A stretch of 64,000 bases of DNA from a virus, in the IMG/VR virus record IMGVR_UViG_3300025603_000009, positions 18,586 through 82,585 of that record; one strand, given 5' to 3'. Every line of letters starts with the position of its first letter. Position 1 is the stretch's first letter. Below are positions 4,961 through 54,917 of this stretch, in pieces. The translations under genes and the position numbers were made by a program. Below the pieces are notes generated by a model. The model was not told the origin of the DNA, did not search any database, and worked only from the letters and a program-made list of their open reading frames with translations.

Positions 4961-7767
4961 TATTTATTGTAATTTTCTACGTGTACGTGTTTATGAGGGG
5001 CATTAACACTATCATGTATTAAATAACGCAAGCCCATTAATTGTGTATTATCACCACCCACTGTTAAAATTCTCCATCCAGGTGCATTAACATCTTCTAT
5101 AGAATTAGCTTCTAAATTAGTTTGTAAATCAGGCGTTAATTTTAAATCCATAGCATTTCCTATACTATGTTCACCACCACTATAAGCAAGATTGCCCATA
5201 CTCCGTGATAAAGATACCGCTGATGTATTAACAGGAAGTATATTATTTAACACATATAATTTTCTAGCAAAATCGGCTTTAAATTTAAAACCAGTTAATA
5301 AACTTTCACTAATTTGAGTTTCATCTATATTTATATTACTAAACGTATCGTCAGTCATAGGTACAAATACCGCATCTCTAGCAAGAGCTTCTAAACCATT
5401 TTGAAAAGATAATAAACTGCTATTAGGCACAGATTTTTCTCCAGTTTGTTTATCAATTATACTATAAGATGTTTCACCACGTTCATTAGTTTCTCTATAT
5501 GCATCTACAGATGTAACACCACCAAAACCATCATCTCCAACTATAAATTCAGTTGTTAAATTAGTATTTGGTTTTTGTTTAGTGTAATAAAAAGGGGCTA
5601 ATTGTTGTTCTGTATTATCATCTACAATTTGATACGCATAATCAACAACATTACCATATTTTTCAATTGCAACATTTCCTTTATCTGTATAATAATTAGA
5701 AAGTAATTCATTAAAGATTTTTCCTGAAACACCAGAATTTACTGTACCAAATTTTGTAGGTACAACATAAACATTACCTTCTTTACCTTTATCATTACTG
5801 TTTGTTCTATCTTTTACATTAAATTTTCCTGCTAGTAAAAAACCTTTACCGCCAGGAACCCATGTAGTAGAACCGTGTACACTAAAACTTGCATTAGCTG
5901 CTTCAGGTGTAGTACCCGAAACTTTTAAAAATTCATCATATGTTAAACTGTTACCTTCGTAAATATATGTGTATTCTTGAGGTTTATTATTTACCCATGC
6001 ACTTAAAGTTTTACTAATAGTGCTTTCTTTACCTTCTTTATCTACACTAAAATCTATTACAGTTGGTTGATGTTCATATTGACTCCTAGTAGCAAAATAT
6101 TCATCACTGTATTCTTCATTATTAACTTTATGATATGCACTTACTATAGGTTTTAAATCTTCTAGTGTTTCTCTAAGTCGGGCTAATTTATCACCATCAA
6201 AATCTCCACTAAACGCTCCTTTAAGATAACTAGGTCCAAACACACCATGATTTTTTAAATGGTGATTAGTGCTAATTATTCTACCTAAAAAAACCTGATC
6301 ACGCGAGTCACGAAGTTTTCTTTTTGCTACTTCACTTAATACAGGTGCATAATTTAAATTATCAAGTGTTATTTGTGCGTTAGCGGGGTCAGAATTTGCT
6401 AAAGCAGGATTTGTATCAACATTAAGTAAATCATCAGCCATGTTTATACTAACATCGTCGTACCTGTTAAGAGTTTCATTAAATATATCTTTTTTATACA
6501 CAGAATCATCAGAACTCACAATTTCATGTTCTAAATTAGTCAATTGCATATCTTGTATTAGATATGGGTCTATAGGGTCACCATTTTTATCTGTAGGATT
6601 TCTTAAATAATCATAATAATCTTGACCACGAATTTTAGTCATATTATTTAATTTAGCTTGTTCAAGAAGTATACTAGAAGCATATTTTTGAGCTTCTATT
6701 TCTGCATCTGCTCTTTCACGATCTGTTGCATTTGGGTCTACAGAAGTTGTATATGCTTCATTATGTGACTTAGTATATGAACCTATTAAATCTTCTTGTG
6801 TAGAATACATTTCATCATATTCTACACTAGTAGGTGGAAGTCCAGCAGGATTAGTAATAGCTTCTCCAATTGTATAACCTAAATAAGCAGATTTTGTTGA
6901 TAGTTCTTGTTCAGACGTTTTTCGTGCTTTAGTAGCTTCCGCTCGATTTAAACGTTCTAAATCACTAATATATGCTGCATCTTCTACTTTAAAAACCTTC
7001 ATTAAACCAACATCCATTAAACTTTGTTTAATGTTAGCTTCAGCCCATACAATAGGTTCGCCTTTGGAAGTATACGTACCGTCTAATTCAACTATTTTTT
7101 TGCGCTCTTGTTGACCTTCAGGAGTTTGCATATAACGTTTATACGCATAATCATTTAAATTTTTAATTTTAGTTGCACTTATTTGAGTAATTTGATTGTT
7201 TTTAATTAAAGCAAATTCTTCTTCAGTAATTAAACCTTGTGCAACTGCATCTTCTTGAATAATTCCCCAAATATCTTGTTTACGTTTGTCGTAATCTAAT
7301 CTAGGTTGAACATCAGATTGGTAAGTTTGTATATTACCTTCATCATTATATGTAGCAAATTTATCAGGATCGTTAAATACTAAAGTATCTAAACCTTGAG
7401 ATTTCATTTCACGAATAAGTTCACGATCTTTATTAATAGCGGCTTTATTTTTTACTGCGGCATTTAATCCCTCATTTGTAGCTAAATTTTTACTAGCAAA
7501 TCTAATTTCTGGTGTTAAACTTTCGTAATCTCCAGTTTTAGACATTTTGTTAATTTGTTCATTTAGAACATGAATAGCCTCGTCTTTAAGATTTTGATCA
7601 TTTTCGCTTACATCTAAATTTGCAGCTAATACTTCTATAGTATCTATAGCTTGTAAATTATCGTCATAACGATTTTGAAGAACTCCCATTGTTTCATCAA
7701 TTTGTTCAGTAGGCATACCAGCGTATGTACTTTTAGGAGTTGCGTATGATAGTTTACTATAAGGCAT
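4960..7767 (-). CDS. Large virion-module protein with C-terminal M15-like peptidase
   Basis: This is a 935-residue protein. Most of it is unrecognised alpha/beta sequence with no signal peptide. The last 75 residues carry an M15 (VanY/D-Ala-D-Ala peptidase) type signature: an HxxGxAxD motif with His867 and Asp874, then an HxHxH cluster at 925-929 near the C-terminus, matching the zinc ligands of that family. The likely role is local peptidoglycan cleavage during DNA ejection, as part of the cargo or tail, rather than general lysis. Context supports this: it lies between the uptake protein and the giant cargo gene. The peptidase call is fairly firm; the virion location is inferred from gene order. 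Confidence 0.6.
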   Translation of the reverse strand: MPYSKLSYATPKSTYAGMPTEQIDETMGVLQNRYDDNLQAIDTIEVLAANLDVSENDQNLKDEAIHVLNEQINKMSKTGDYESLTPEIRFASKNLATNEGLNAAVKNKAAINKDRELIREMKSQGLDTLVFNDPDKFATYNDEGNIQTYQSDVQPRLDYDKRKQDIWGIIQEDAVAQGLITEEEFALIKNNQITQISATKIKNLNDYAYKRYMQTPEGQQERKKIVELDGTYTSKGEPIVWAEANIKQSLMDVGLMKVFKVEDAAYISDLERLNRAEATKARKTSEQELSTKSAYLGYTIGEAITNPAGLPPTSVEYDEMYSTQEDLIGSYTKSHNEAYTTSVDPNATDRERADAEIEAQKYASSILLEQAKLNNMTKIRGQDYYDYLRNPTDKNGDPIDPYLIQDMQLTNLEHEIVSSDDSVYKKDIFNETLNRYDDVSINMADDLLNVDTNPALANSDPANAQITLDNLNYAPVLSEVAKRKLRDSRDQVFLGRIISTNHHLKNHGVFGPSYLKGAFSGDFDGDKLARLRETLEDLKPIVSAYHKVNNEEYSDEYFATRSQYEHQPTVIDFSVDKEGKESTISKTLSAWVNNKPQEYTYIYEGNSLTYDEFLKVSGTTPEAANASFSVHGSTTWVPGGKGFLLAGKFNVKDRTNSNDKGKEGNVYVVPTKFGTVNSGVSGKIFNELLSNYYTDKGNVAIEKYGNVVDYAYQIVDDNTEQQLAPFYYTKQKPNTNLTTEFIVGDDGFGGVTSVDAYRETNERGETSYSIIDKQTGEKSVPNSSLLSFQNGLEALARDAVFVPMTDDTFSNINIDETQISESLLTGFKFKADFARKLYVLNNILPVNTSAVSLSRSMGNLAYSGGEHSIGNAMDLKLTPDLQTNLEANSIEDVNAPGWRILTVGGDNTQLMGLRYLIHDSVNAPHKHVHVENYNK

Positions 7768-38753: not shown

Positions 38754-39359
38754 ATGAATACTTTTACCATTACTAACGTGCGTCTGTTACCTCAGATTGG
38801 AACTAACGCGCCTGCTATGATTATTGATGTTGCTAACCATACTACTGGTATTTACCGTAGTGAGAAGGTGGCACTGATTGACCTTCGTGATGCAGGCATC
38901 ACTGCTACTAGATTAGCTGACGTTGAACTCGTTGAACTACGTGAACGCTTCATTGGCGGTAGAGTTAGTGGAGACATTATCTTCCACAATGCTGGTAGCA
39001 CATACATTGCTGATGCAAACTCTACTGCTGTCGTTAGCGGTGCTGTCGAAGTTGGTGCTACACTCAAACGTAAGGCTGACCAATTTCGTGTTGAACGCTT
39101 TCTTACCATCTCCCGTAGTGATAACGCGATGCTGCGTTCTGCTATTGCAAAGGAAGCTGGTCAGGCAATGGCACAGCTATGCGGAGGGTTTGTTCCTTCT
39201 GCTAACGTTGGTGCTAGTGCGCAACCAGCATTAGAGGTTGGCGGTAATCATCCTGATGAAGATGATACTGTTGATGGTGACGCTGAAGAAGCTACTGAAG
39301 AAGCTACTGAAGAAGCTACTGCTCCTGTTGGACGTAGAAGCCGTCGCAAGACAGCATAA
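38754..39359 (+). CDS. Acidic-repeat protein with GC-rich coding, unrecognised
   Basis: The protein has 201 residues starting at the ATG at 38754. The coding sequence is visibly more GC-rich than its neighbours and uses C- and G-ending codons, suggesting strong expression or foreign origin. Residues 1-150 form a compact alpha/beta domain. The tail is acidic (DEDD) followed by three EEAT repeats (AEEATEEATEEAT) and a basic end (GRRSRRK). The acidic/basic tail suggests nucleic-acid or protein binding. An unusually structured 3' region follows. No family recognised. Confidence 0.6.
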   Translation: MNTFTITNVRLLPQIGTNAPAMIIDVANHTTGIYRSEKVALIDLRDAGITATRLADVELVELRERFIGGRVSGDIIFHNAGSTYIADANSTAVVSGAVEVGATLKRKADQFRVERFLTISRSDNAMLRSAIAKEAGQAMAQLCGGFVPSANVGASAQPALEVGGNHPDEDDTVDGDAEEATEEATEEATAPVGRRSRRKTA

Positions 39360-39367
39360 TATGCGAA

Positions 39368-39395
39368 ACGACGATAGTAGCGATACTATCGTCGT
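39368..39395. other. Perfect 12-bp hairpin with GCGA tetraloop
   Basis: ACGACGATAGTA and TACTATCGTCGT pair perfectly around a GCGA (GNRA-type) tetraloop, 9 bases after the stop of the acidic-repeat gene. No T tract follows, so it is not a standard terminator. It may protect the mRNA 3' end, serve as a binding site, or be a processing signal. Confidence 0.65.
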
Positions 39396-39399
39396 CTAT

Positions 39400-39509
39400 C
39401 ACACGTGATGGTGTGGTACTGATGAGCAGTCACTAATGTACGCATACGTAGTTATTACGTGTGTGTACGTAAGCATAGTCTAATCATACTTACAGCGCGA
39501 ACACTGTAA
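39400..39509. other. Further hairpins in the same 3' region
   Basis: CACAC/GTGTG (39400-39415) and TTACAG/CTGTAA (39490-39509) are short perfect stems in the 214-bp gap before the next gene. With the 12-bp hairpin they make an array of three stems, which may be a structured untranslated RNA. Confidence 0.4.
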
Positions 39510-52387: not shown

Positions 52388-52617
52388 CATTTTTTAAATA
52401 CTATCTCAGAAATTTTAGTATAGCTACTATTTTTATAGTTGCTATTGCTATTGCGTGTTATTATACACGTGAAGAATTTACTACACCTGCTGTAGTTACA
52501 TCAAGCATATTGTTAATATTCTGTATTTTACTTCCATTATTACTCCTTATAAAAGGGTATATAAGTTATTTAAAATATAAAAAAAATATAAAAAAACTGA
52601 ACATAAATGACATCTGA
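52384..52617 (+). CDS. Small two-helix membrane protein
   Basis: This is a 77-residue protein with hydrophobic helices at about 10-26 and 37-58 and a basic Lys-rich tail. It overlaps both neighbours by a few bases. A holin-like layout, but no clear family. It may work with the spanin-like protein next door. Confidence 0.45.
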   Translation: MTFFKYYLRNFSIATIFIVAIAIACYYTREEFTTPAVVTSSILLIFCILLPLLLLIKGYISYLKYKKNIKKLNINDI

Positions 52618-53098
52618 AATAATAACTCTAATAATATGTACATTAGCGTATTTAGTGTATATTAATGGAACTGTATATTTTGAAGCATATGCGTTCCATT
52701 TAAAAAACCACGATAAAATACAACCATATAATCCACATTATTTTTTAATAAAACAAAGAATAGTGGTTATACTTGCACTTTCTTTTATAATGACTGGTCT
52801 ATCTTTTTTTACACTTGCAAATATTGTAGGGTTAAGTATGATTTATCCGTATTTTCATGATGGTCAGTATTATAAACTTCGTAATAAACTACATAAAAAA
52901 CACAATATTATCGAAGAAAAATATATGTTTAATGAAATAAAAGACATATATCCTGACAATGATATTGAAGAAGTGTTACCTAATGGTGACCCATACAAAG
53001 CTAAATTTTCTTATAATGCAAATCAGCGGTTTGATTTAGCTATAGTAGGTTTAGGAATACTAGTTTGTGTTGTTCTAGTAAAACTATTATTAGCATAA
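52607..53098 (+). CDS. Membrane protein with HDGxYYxxRN motif
   Basis: This is a 163-residue protein with membrane helices at about residues 5-19, 49-80 and 144-162. Between them is PYFHDGQYYKLRNKL, a pattern I recall from short phage membrane proteins in Bacteroidota phages, of unknown function. It ends just before the tRNA. Envelope modification is a possible role. Confidence 0.45.
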   Translation: MTSEIITLIICTLAYLVYINGTVYFEAYAFHLKNHDKIQPYNPHYFLIKQRIVVILALSFIMTGLSFFTLANIVGLSMIYPYFHDGQYYKLRNKLHKKHNIIEEKYMFNEIKDIYPDNDIEEVLPNGDPYKAKFSYNANQRFDLAIVGLGILVCVVLVKLLLA

Positions 53099-53109
53099 TT
53101 GTGCTAATA

Positions 53110-53193
53110 GGTCAGATGGCGAAATTGGTAAATGAGCAATGCGTTTGTGTTGTGATACAATGTATCTTGTAGGTTCGAATCCTACTCTGACCA
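53110..53193 (+). tRNA. Class II tRNA (Leu/Ser-type architecture), anticodon not assignable
   Basis: GGTCAGA/TCTGACC forms the acceptor. The D arm carries the AATTGGTAAAT pattern typical of tRNA-Leu. A long variable arm (GATAC, AAT, GTATC) and the T arm GTAGG-TTCGAAT-CCTAC are perfect. The anticodon stem (CAAT/GTTG plus flanking G-U pairs) leaves an 8-nt loop GCGTTTGT, or a 6-nt loop if G pairs with U, so no standard 7-nt anticodon loop can be drawn and U33 is not evident. It may be a nonstandard or degenerate tRNA. Confidence 0.7.
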
Positions 53194-53207
53194 CAAAAAA
53201 TAATGTT

Positions 53208-53348
53208 ATGAGAGACATAAAAACTTTTTATTTGATAGCAGCTACATTAAGTATGGATTCTGCTTGTTGTGTAGCTCATTCAAAATGTAATGATAATTTT
53301 AAAAGAATAAAATTAACCAAAAAACAAAAGACTGCAAAAATGGTTTAA
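53208..53348 (+). CDS. 46-residue protein, possible secreted or lipoprotein peptide
   Basis: An ATG at 53208 lies just after the tRNA (the longer open frame would run through the tRNA and is rejected). The N-terminus (MRDIKTFYLIAATLSMDSAC) looks like a short signal with a cysteine-containing cleavage region. The tail is Lys-rich. Weakly supported as a real gene. Confidence 0.3.
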   Translation: MRDIKTFYLIAATLSMDSACCVAHSKCNDNFKRIKLTKKQKTAKMV

Positions 53349-53447: not shown

Positions 53448-54917
53448 ATGAATATTGACGCTAAAAAATCTGCTCGACAAGCTGAAGGTGCGCAAAAATG
53501 GCGTACTTCAAAAAAGCATGGAGCTATTAAAAATGGTAGTGGTGTTCTTAATTATGTTTATGGATTTGGTAAAACATATGGCACAATTAATTATATTATT
53601 AAACCTGTTTTACTTCAAGATTTACTTAATCAGAATGTAATAATTGTTGTTCCTTCTGATGCTATTAAAAAACAATGGCGTATAGAGATTTCTAAATTTA
53701 TAACATACGAATGTAATATTCAAATATTTAGTGCTGATGAACTTATTAACGCTAAAGAAATTCATGTATGTACATTATTAGTTGTAGATGAATTACATTT
53801 ATTTTATTCTGAAGAACGAGAAAAACTTATCAATAAAACTCTTATTAAATTCAAATATAATGTTGGTTTAACTGCCACTTATGAAGATAGTACGGGTAGA
53901 CACAAAAAACATAATAAATTGTGGCATGTTATTGATAAAATAGATGAAGCTGAAGGTATTAAAGAAGGTTATATTTCTAAATTTATAGAATATAATATTA
54001 GTGTTGATTTTACGCAACTTGAAAAACTTGAATACGATCAACATACTGTAGCTATTGGTTTACATCTTCCTAAATTTAATAACAATCTTAAGTTTGTTAT
54101 ATTGTGTCTCACAGGTGGCGAAGATAAAAATGGCAATTTTCATAAAGCTATTCAATGGGCTACTTCATTAGCTGTAAGTAATGGTTGGAAAAGTTCACTT
54201 GATTTATCAATTGATAATAATATACAAATAAATAATTTATGGAATCCAAGTAAAATTATTGGATATGCTAAGTTGTTAATGGACGCTATTAGATTAAGAA
54301 AAGATATTGTTTATAATGCACATAATAAAATTAGCATTACTACAGATATTATTGAAAAATTTAAAGAGTTAAAAACTATTTGTTTTAGCCAATCTACTGC
54401 ATTTGCAGACAAAGTTGCATTATCTATTAATGAACGTATGGGTTCTGATTATTGTGTAGTATATCACTCTAATGTCAGTTCTCGCCCTTTGAAAGGAGAT
54501 GATGGACATTGGATTACTTACAAAAGTGGTAATAAAGAAGGTCAGATTAAACTGTTTGGTAAAACCACATTAAAAAATATTGCTATTGATGCAATTAAAA
54601 ATGGAAAAGCAGGTGCTATATCTAGTTCTTCTGCGTTAGATGCAGGATTTAATGTAGAAAGTATTAGAATGTCTATTACTACTAGTGGTACTGCTAATGT
54701 TATTCAACAAAAACAACGTCGTGGACGTGTTGTTAGAATAGAAAAAGGGTACAATGACAATGTACTAATTATTAATGTTTATATAAAAGATAGCGTAGAT
54801 GAAAACTGGTTAAGAAAACGACAACAAAAAAGCTCTACTATACCGTATTCAATACATAGTATCGAGCAAATACGAATTAAAAACACTAAAAAAATTAATC
54901 CATTTACTATACAATGA
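53448..54917 (+). CDS. SF2 helicase, UvsW/SNF2-like
   Basis: This is a 489-residue protein. Walker A-like GFGKT is at 39-43, motif II VVDELH at 112-117, and motif III TAT at 142-144. Motif VI QQKQRRGRVVR is at about residues 422-432. The two-domain layout fits the SNF2/UvsW-type SF2 helicases of the crAss-like replication set, used for branch migration or restart. ATGA overlaps it with the next gene. The family call is strong; the substrate is inferred. Confidence 0.8.
   Translation: MNIDAKKSARQAEGAQKWRTSKKHGAIKNGSGVLNYVYGFGKTYGTINYIIKPVLLQDLLNQNVIIVVPSDAIKKQWRIEISKFITYECNIQIFSADELINAKEIHVCTLLVVDELHLFYSEEREKLINKTLIKFKYNVGLTATYEDSTGRHKKHNKLWHVIDKIDEAEGIKEGYISKFIEYNISVDFTQLEKLEYDQHTVAIGLHLPKFNNNLKFVILCLTGGEDKNGNFHKAIQWATSLAVSNGWKSSLDLSIDNNIQINNLWNPSKIIGYAKLLMDAIRLRKDIVYNAHNKISITTDIIEKFKELKTICFSQSTAFADKVALSINERMGSDYCVVYHSNVSSRPLKGDDGHWITYKSGNKEGQIKLFGKTTLKNIAIDAIKNGKAGAISSSSALDAGFNVESIRMSITTSGTANVIQQKQRRGRVVRIEKGYNDNVLIINVYIKDSVDENWLRKRQQKSSTIPYSIHSIEQIRIKNTKKINPFTIQ

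Follow-up and report, generated by a model that had tools for sequence, protein, structure and literature searches.

A leucine-type tRNA-like gene without an ordinary anticodon arm in a crAss-like phage, and a set of related elements in other phages

The stretch of DNA analysed here, hereafter the window, is 64,000 nucleotides long and comprises bases 18,586-82,585 of an 82,585-base virus record. Among named phages, 134 records match the major capsid protein of this phage, at a best identity of about 40%, and many of these records are crAss-like. At positions 53110..53193 on the plus strand lies an 84-nt tRNA-Leu-type class II tRNA-like RNA, recognised from the sequence itself, by ARAGORN and by Rfam family RF00005. 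Its neighbours are tightly spaced and co-directional: an upstream open reading frame (ORF) of 163 amino acids without a Pfam match (52607..53098, +) stops 11 nt before the element, and a possible ORF of 46 amino acids, read by eye (53208..53348, +), starts 14 nt past it. Over the stop codon of the upstream ORF, a predicted 9-bp hairpin (53088..53109, +) abuts the 5' end of the element. Further downstream, a profile match identified a helicase (PHROG 16; 53448..54917, +), the closest relative of which was found in the uncultured phage cr127_1 of the Crevaviridae (29% identity).

The RF00005 match spans exactly 53110-53193 and thereby bears out the tRNA-type cloverleaf proposed in the first-pass annotation; it scored 35.2 bits against a cut-off of 29 (E 0.0012 with the window searched), and against the whole 82,585-base record it had an E value of 3.6e-7 and was the only tRNA match. 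All features of the element lie on the plus strand. The acceptor stem, formed by GGTCAGA (53110..53116) and TCTGACC (53186..53192), pairs in all seven positions and is followed by the discriminator A73 (53193) and a CAA flank (53194..53196), the C74-N-A trailer seen in most phage tRNAs of related loci. The T arm GTAGG-TTCGAAT-CCTAC (53169..53185), supported by sequence and by the Rfam alignment, pairs in 5/5 positions, and as in a canonical tRNA the acceptor thus has 7 bp and the T arm 5 bp. The variable arm GATAC-AAT-GTATC (53154..53166; sequence and fold), which had been described as perfect, does pair in 5/5 positions, and U48, the Levitt-pair partner of A15, lies at 53168. The same description held all other arms to be intact, and here it has to be corrected: in the D arm (53119..53135), the loop carries A14, A15, G18 and G19, and the stem is broken, consisting of a G10xA26 mismatch, C11-G25 and G12.U24, with the Rfam alignment likewise flagging the D-stem pairs as non-standard, so that the paired D stem of a canonical tRNA is missing. 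The base at position -1 is A, not U. The leucine identity set is present (A73, A15-U48, G18G19, A20a and intact T/D loops), and, judged from its sequence, the element is a real leucine-type class II tRNA-like gene of a crAss-like phage.

The anticodon arm, GCAATGCGTTTGTGTTGT (53136..53153, +), is non-canonical, with a loop of 8, 6 or 4 nt according to stem enumeration, in which at most one mismatch was allowed, and folding. In the 8-nt-loop register, GCAAT-GCGTTTGT-GTTGT, the second loop position is not U, and the 6-nt-loop register, CAATG-[CGTTTG]-TGTTG, also lacks U33; the unconstrained fold lengthens the anticodon stem to 7 bp and leaves a loop of 4 nt. The loop of 8 or 6 nt noted in the first pass was hence recovered in both forms, but a weak-stemmed 7-nt register exists as well, ATGCG-[TTTGTGT]-TGTGA, with one Watson-Crick pair, three G.U pairs and one mismatch in its stem, and from this register ARAGORN derives the name tRNA-Thr(UGU). 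A 7-nt loop with U33 on a 5-bp stem, as found in canonical tRNAs, is absent, and the element probably does not decode. A stop-codon reader was considered and rejected, as the anticodon arm holds no CUA, UCA or UUA and long frames are open under the standard code.

The element could alternatively be a working, unusual tRNA, either a frameshift reader with an 8-nt loop or a leucine-type tRNA reading ACA (UGU) or CAA (UUG) and resistant to anticodon nucleases. In favour of such a tRNA are the ARAGORN call and two precedents from the excerpts cited, the natural 8-nt loop of yeast mitochondrial tRNA-Thr(UAG) (PMC7609411) and phage tRNAs with altered anticodon loops (PMC10264068). We nevertheless regard it as highly improbable: the 8- and 6-nt loops have no U33, the stem of the 7-nt register contains a single Watson-Crick pair, and insertion of leucine at ACA or CAA would harm the phage's own proteins, since both codons are frequent in its genes (374 and 400, respectively, among 14,393 codons in 33 ORFs). 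The altered-loop phage tRNAs (van den Berg et al. 2023, PMC10264068) resemble the window element in being phage-encoded and in having their changes concentrated in the anticodon arm, but in the excerpt cited they are proposed to decode still while escaping nucleases, whereas decoding by the window element is apparently lost; a nuclease-resistant phage tRNA decodes with a point-altered loop, and no decoding register was found here. The earlier suggestions of a frameshifting or a nuclease-resistant tRNA are consequently unsupported, as either would need a decoding anticodon, and U33 and a good stem do not occur together in any register.

The first pass named a sequencing error at the locus as a possible refutation. 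A second contig (L004) carries an identical copy of the gene and agrees with the window over 17,467 bases around it without a mismatch; misassembly of a single contig is thus unlikely, although the two contigs may share source reads. Searches for other versions of the site were less productive. A DNA search of named phages with 1 kb around the gene gave no match, tRNA-sized BLAST queries against named phages returned ordinary tRNA pieces or nothing, and searches of viral contigs with the helicase and the DNA polymerase recovered only the identical second contig. A capsid-based search, from which 80 crAss-like loci were kept, reached a best identity of 54% besides two 100% copies. In none of these searches did an independent homologue with a tRNA at the window site come up. 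Among 30 records from these loci, 12 have tRNA matches, 27 in total, of which ARAGORN names 16, labels 2 as tRNA-??? and misses 9. Odd tRNAs in crAss-like records, mostly not leucine-type as judged by eye, include a 65-nt and a 111-nt gene that are the sole two in one record and a gene with a 12-nt loop in another. Distant crAss-like phages do have ordinary tRNA-Leu(UAA) genes at other places in their genomes, namely cr127_1, cr271_1, two records of the 30 and MT835839.1.

The tRNA-Leu(UAA) of MT835839.1 resembles the window element in its near-identical acceptor (GCTCAGA, compared with GGTCAGA in the window), D loop, T arm, A73, A15-U48 and variable arm, and the start of the D arm, TGGCGAAATTGGTA, is common to both; the window element differs in lacking a 7-nt U33 loop and in its broken D stem. 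This similarity of acceptor and D arm makes a normal crAss-like tRNA-Leu the most likely ancestor of the window gene. For the window copy, the chief alternative to a functional RNA is decay, i.e., a recently disabled crAss-like tRNA-Leu(UAA) that is no longer selected. Such decay would account for the nearly identical acceptor and identical D-arm start of the ordinary gene in MT835839.1, for the damage to both the D stem and the anticodon arm, for the missing U-1 and for the single genotype known of the window gene. We consider it unlikely, though a serious contender, as the acceptor, T and variable arms are perfectly paired, the differences from the MT835839 gene in the acceptor and T stem are themselves paired, and genes of this kind recur in many unrelated phages, where the flanks and tertiary pairs have been maintained.

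These related genes were found by pattern searches. The D-arm 18-mer TGGCGAAATTGGTAAATG had 8 matches in viral contigs, the window copy included, and all 8 lie in tRNA-like genes in which acceptor and T arm match but an ordinary anticodon arm is lacking; at these loci ARAGORN names the window copy only. The same 18-mer had 8 matches in bacterial and archaeal contigs, 7 of them without a T arm behind, while the eighth, in a Flavobacterium sp. contig (L031), is tRNA-like, has no ordinary anticodon arm and adjoins a DUF3164 gene. A relaxed pattern with a longer middle yielded 11 matches, 11/11 tRNA-like, and a variant with the commoner C at the D-stem position concerned yielded at least 120, whereas a normal-length pattern matched 8 times (six ordinary tRNA-Leu(UAA) genes, the window copy and L013); the long pattern matches 3 of 395 Bacteroidota genomes. 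Altogether, more than 100 related elements of 97-127 nt were found beyond the 18-mer set, hardly any of them named by ARAGORN (one, L057 of 97 nt, is called tRNA-Leu(UAA)) and covered in Rfam by the general tRNA family alone. This abundance is a lower bound from a sample that is not random. The patterns imposed the leucine-type D arm, T20-A20a and the T loop, which are therefore not evidence, and length was also partly imposed.

Of the 151 pattern matches, 136 form six or all seven of the acceptor pairs, and the 15 with fewer than six were dropped. Among the 136 rows, the window gene occurs repeatedly, and six rows (L156-L161) are ordinary tRNA-Leu(UAA) genes, which are also contained in the 114 unique elements; the statistics were calculated on 95 independent clusters of at least 97 nt, a set that omits the window copy (84 nt) and L156-L161. 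In this set, several features that the patterns did not impose (U48, U-1, C74 and A73) are kept. U48 is present in 93/95 elements. U-1 occurs in 68/95, compared with a nearby background of 28.5% (p 5e-18), and in 75/101 named tRNAs of the same loci, while C74 is found in 82/95 elements against 98/101 named tRNAs. The outer three T-stem pairs, which were free to vary, are intact in 110/114 unique elements, and pair 10-26 is kept in 111/114, leaving three D-stem positions paired. The anticodon region, in contrast, has no constant helix, with a helix score of at least 5 in 26/95 elements (27%, against 20% in shuffles). A73 is present in 71/95 elements and, as it is missing in 24/95, leucylation cannot be the common role of the set. 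Genes common to most loci were absent among the neighbours; L080, L106 and L132 have two upstream genes in common, and the tRNA-like sequences there are unrelated.

Judged from these sequence patterns, the RNAs of the set appear to undergo maturation and to be under selection for a role other than decoding. With U48, U-1, C74 and the pairing of acceptor and T stem kept and the anticodon arm free, the related elements also support the first-pass view that the window gene is under selection, for something besides ordinary decoding. The window copy shares with the set an intact acceptor and T arm, A15-U48, C74 and the lack of an ordinary anticodon arm, and departs from its norm in the A at -1, the broken D stem, the length of 84 nt and its single copy, although many members of the set are also single within the stretch covered. 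It would belong or run parallel to this set, through either a recent common ancestor with the AGTCAGG-type elements or a parallel origin. An intron in the anticodon loop was rejected as a general account, as the inserts have neither a constant position nor a flanking anticodon. In a few elements (L063, L078, L139 and L100), the motif CTCAAAA is kept with extra bases ahead of it.

The middles of the 114 elements fall into 99 clusters, most of them without a relative, and nothing strong emerged as a common sequence motif among them. In two pairs, L051/L136 and L067/L092, the acceptors differ yet still pair while the middles are related, and this conservation despite changed acceptors suggests that the middle matters in some lineages. 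The same pairs, together with the constant frame and different middles seen within one phage, speak for a scaffolded regulatory RNA in which the tRNA frame stabilises an active middle. Such a role is nonetheless improbable for the set, given how few middles have relatives and given that the longest match of a middle elsewhere in its own locus is 9.80 nt, against 9.81 nt in shuffles. By the latter comparison, antisense action on the phage's own genes was also rejected.

When 117 loci were scanned for every combination of an acceptor with a T arm, 140 non-canonical elements were recovered, 101 of them seeds and 39 new, in addition to 102 ARAGORN-named tRNAs; dinucleotide-shuffled loci gave 0.6 elements per set, the shuffle count, unlike the real one, not having been de-duplicated. 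An acceptor within one base of that of the seed was found in 16/39 new elements, compared with 6/102 named tRNAs (p 2e-6). Of the 39, one at least (L139 420-540) has the look of a chance match. In a partial, hand-made list, all 26 neighbouring elements lie on the strand of the seed, at gaps of 4 nt to 4.2 kb. Tandem elements in one phage often have the acceptor in common and differ in the middle, and such copies point to a trans-acting RNA family rather than to broken tRNA genes or single processing sites.

Single processing sites are nevertheless the basis of the chief functional alternative, in which the tRNA-like structure is RNA-processing punctuation, cut by RNase P and 3' enzymes and thereby separating phage mRNAs. 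RNase P prefers U at -1, and the t-elements of plant mitochondria are tRNA-shaped processing signals without a decoding role. The phage elements are like these t-elements in shape and in not decoding, and a processing role is here only a candidate; they differ in forming tandem groups and in the organisms that carry them. Punctuation would agree with the tight co-directional spacing in the window, with a nearest neighbour on the same strand upstream of 80/106 and downstream of 85/101 elements, with U-1 and C74 as in real tRNAs and with an acceptor sequence that is free to vary. Yet it needs neither tandem copies at gaps of 4, 7 and 18 nt nor copies among ordinary tRNAs (L045), and in the window, U-1 is missing from the leader and the cut site is abutted by a strong hairpin, so that we consider this role doubtful.

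Our best explanation, which we hold tentatively and with somewhat less than even confidence, is that the window element is a non-decoding derivative of a phage tRNA-Leu that is matured as a tRNA and acts in trans as a mimic or decoy of the tRNA top half. It would be transcribed together with its neighbours, excised and supplied with a CCA end, as the conserved flanks of related elements suggest; it would probably be leucylated, with the identity set read by LeuRS kept (A73, A15-U48, G18G19, A20a and the T/D-loop contacts); in its sequence, no loop is suited to standard codon reading; and, outside the ribosome, it might engage, as a mimic or decoy, host proteins recognising the tRNA top half, for example tail- or acceptor-directed tRNA toxins or nucleases. 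Among these steps, there is good reason to expect maturation as a tRNA. With regard to charging, Escherichia coli tRNA-Leu is reported to accept leucine even when the anticodon and variable arms have been removed, the elements that matter being A73, A15-U48, G18G19 and A20a (PMC9976931); as the window element retains all of these, the parts for maturation and charging appear to have been kept and the part for the ribosome lost.

A decoy was one of the options put forward in the first pass and, for an element that does not decode and is matured as a tRNA, it is the mechanism that we prefer, as a possibility still short of an even chance. Anticodon nucleases are an unlikely target for such a decoy, since the element no longer has the loop that these enzymes read. 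A decoy based on the top half (acceptor and T arm) fits better, and a tail-directed tRNA nuclease is known in Cas12a3, a defence enzyme acting on the acceptor and tail (PMC12851939, as excerpted). Against the trans-acting mimic or decoy stand the atypical features of the window copy, the conservation of which is backed by no independent homologue, the elements without A73 and the conserved middles of L051/L136 and L067/L092. Extending the idea, many kinds of phages may carry a family of non-decoding, tRNA-matured RNAs in which a constant top half surrounds a free middle, frequently with several members per genome that have the acceptor in common. These RNAs would act in trans on tRNA-recognising proteins, and the window element would be the crAss-like version; for this generalisation we find the case nearly balanced, if slightly on the sceptical side.

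Among known systems, the allo-tRNAs and irregular tRNA-like genes (Mukai 2017, reviewed in PMC7609411) are likewise metagenomic and have odd arms, and some are unusable in E. coli translation; in the excerpt of that review, the allo-tRNA acceptor domain has 12 bp arranged as 8/4 or 9/3, while that of the window element is 7/5. Transfer-messenger RNA (tmRNA) similarly combines a tRNA top half with the lack of an anticodon, but the window element is far shorter and has no messenger part or tag, and neither ARAGORN nor Rfam found a tmRNA in the window. Searches of the literature outside subscription journals and most preprints listed no paper with a title or abstract opening that describes a set of anticodon-less phage tRNA-like RNAs, and the set is apparently undescribed so far. 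Phage tRNA counts rely on tools that demand an anticodon, and non-decoding tRNA-like genes would thus have been missed. If matured and charged, such RNAs would be relevant to the ways in which phages cope with tRNA-directed defence, to RNA processing within phage operons and to the purpose of phage tRNA genes, which are usually treated as codon supply. The class is testable, since the Bacteroides phage BS-TP2 is a cultured carrier.

In BS-TP2, which infects Bacteroides salyersiae BG8, the unannotated element of the set (L283 4103-4210, -) lies between a DUF2303 gene and ninG. A similar unannotated element, identified by eye in Leuconostoc phage phiLM33_01 (L279 about 300-410, +), has the acceptor TGACAGG/CCTGTCA and lies directly ahead of a tRNA-Trp, which is all that ARAGORN names there. 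Two Bacteroidota genomes (L276 and L277) contain tRNA-Leu-like genes, apparently homologous to each other, with an anticodon stem of about 12 bp and a long loop. Three different phage contigs from one metagenome (IMG 3300035698; L001, L009 and L033) all carry tRNA-like genes, and the element of L009 has 20 D-arm bases in common with the window copy. tmRNA genes occur in 5/38 loci with tRNA-like genes (L065, L041, L053, L056 and L063), in all of these except L063 on the same strand and at most about 350 nt from the tRNA-like gene; L063, a phage contig with several tRNA-like genes in addition to its tmRNA, also encodes a GOLLD RNA (6680-7086, -; 322 bits). Further, crAss-like records contain tRNAs with a UUA anticodon, by name ochre suppressors (L264 1501-1575 and L258 1501-1569), and, in one case, a tmRNA adjoining a tRNA-Arg (L256 1677-2041). 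Finally, the window itself encodes a type II hammerhead ribozyme (39361-39435, +; 53.3 bits, cut-off 37), and a few hundred bases ahead of it, near 38,819, the second contig and the window are offset by 12 bases.
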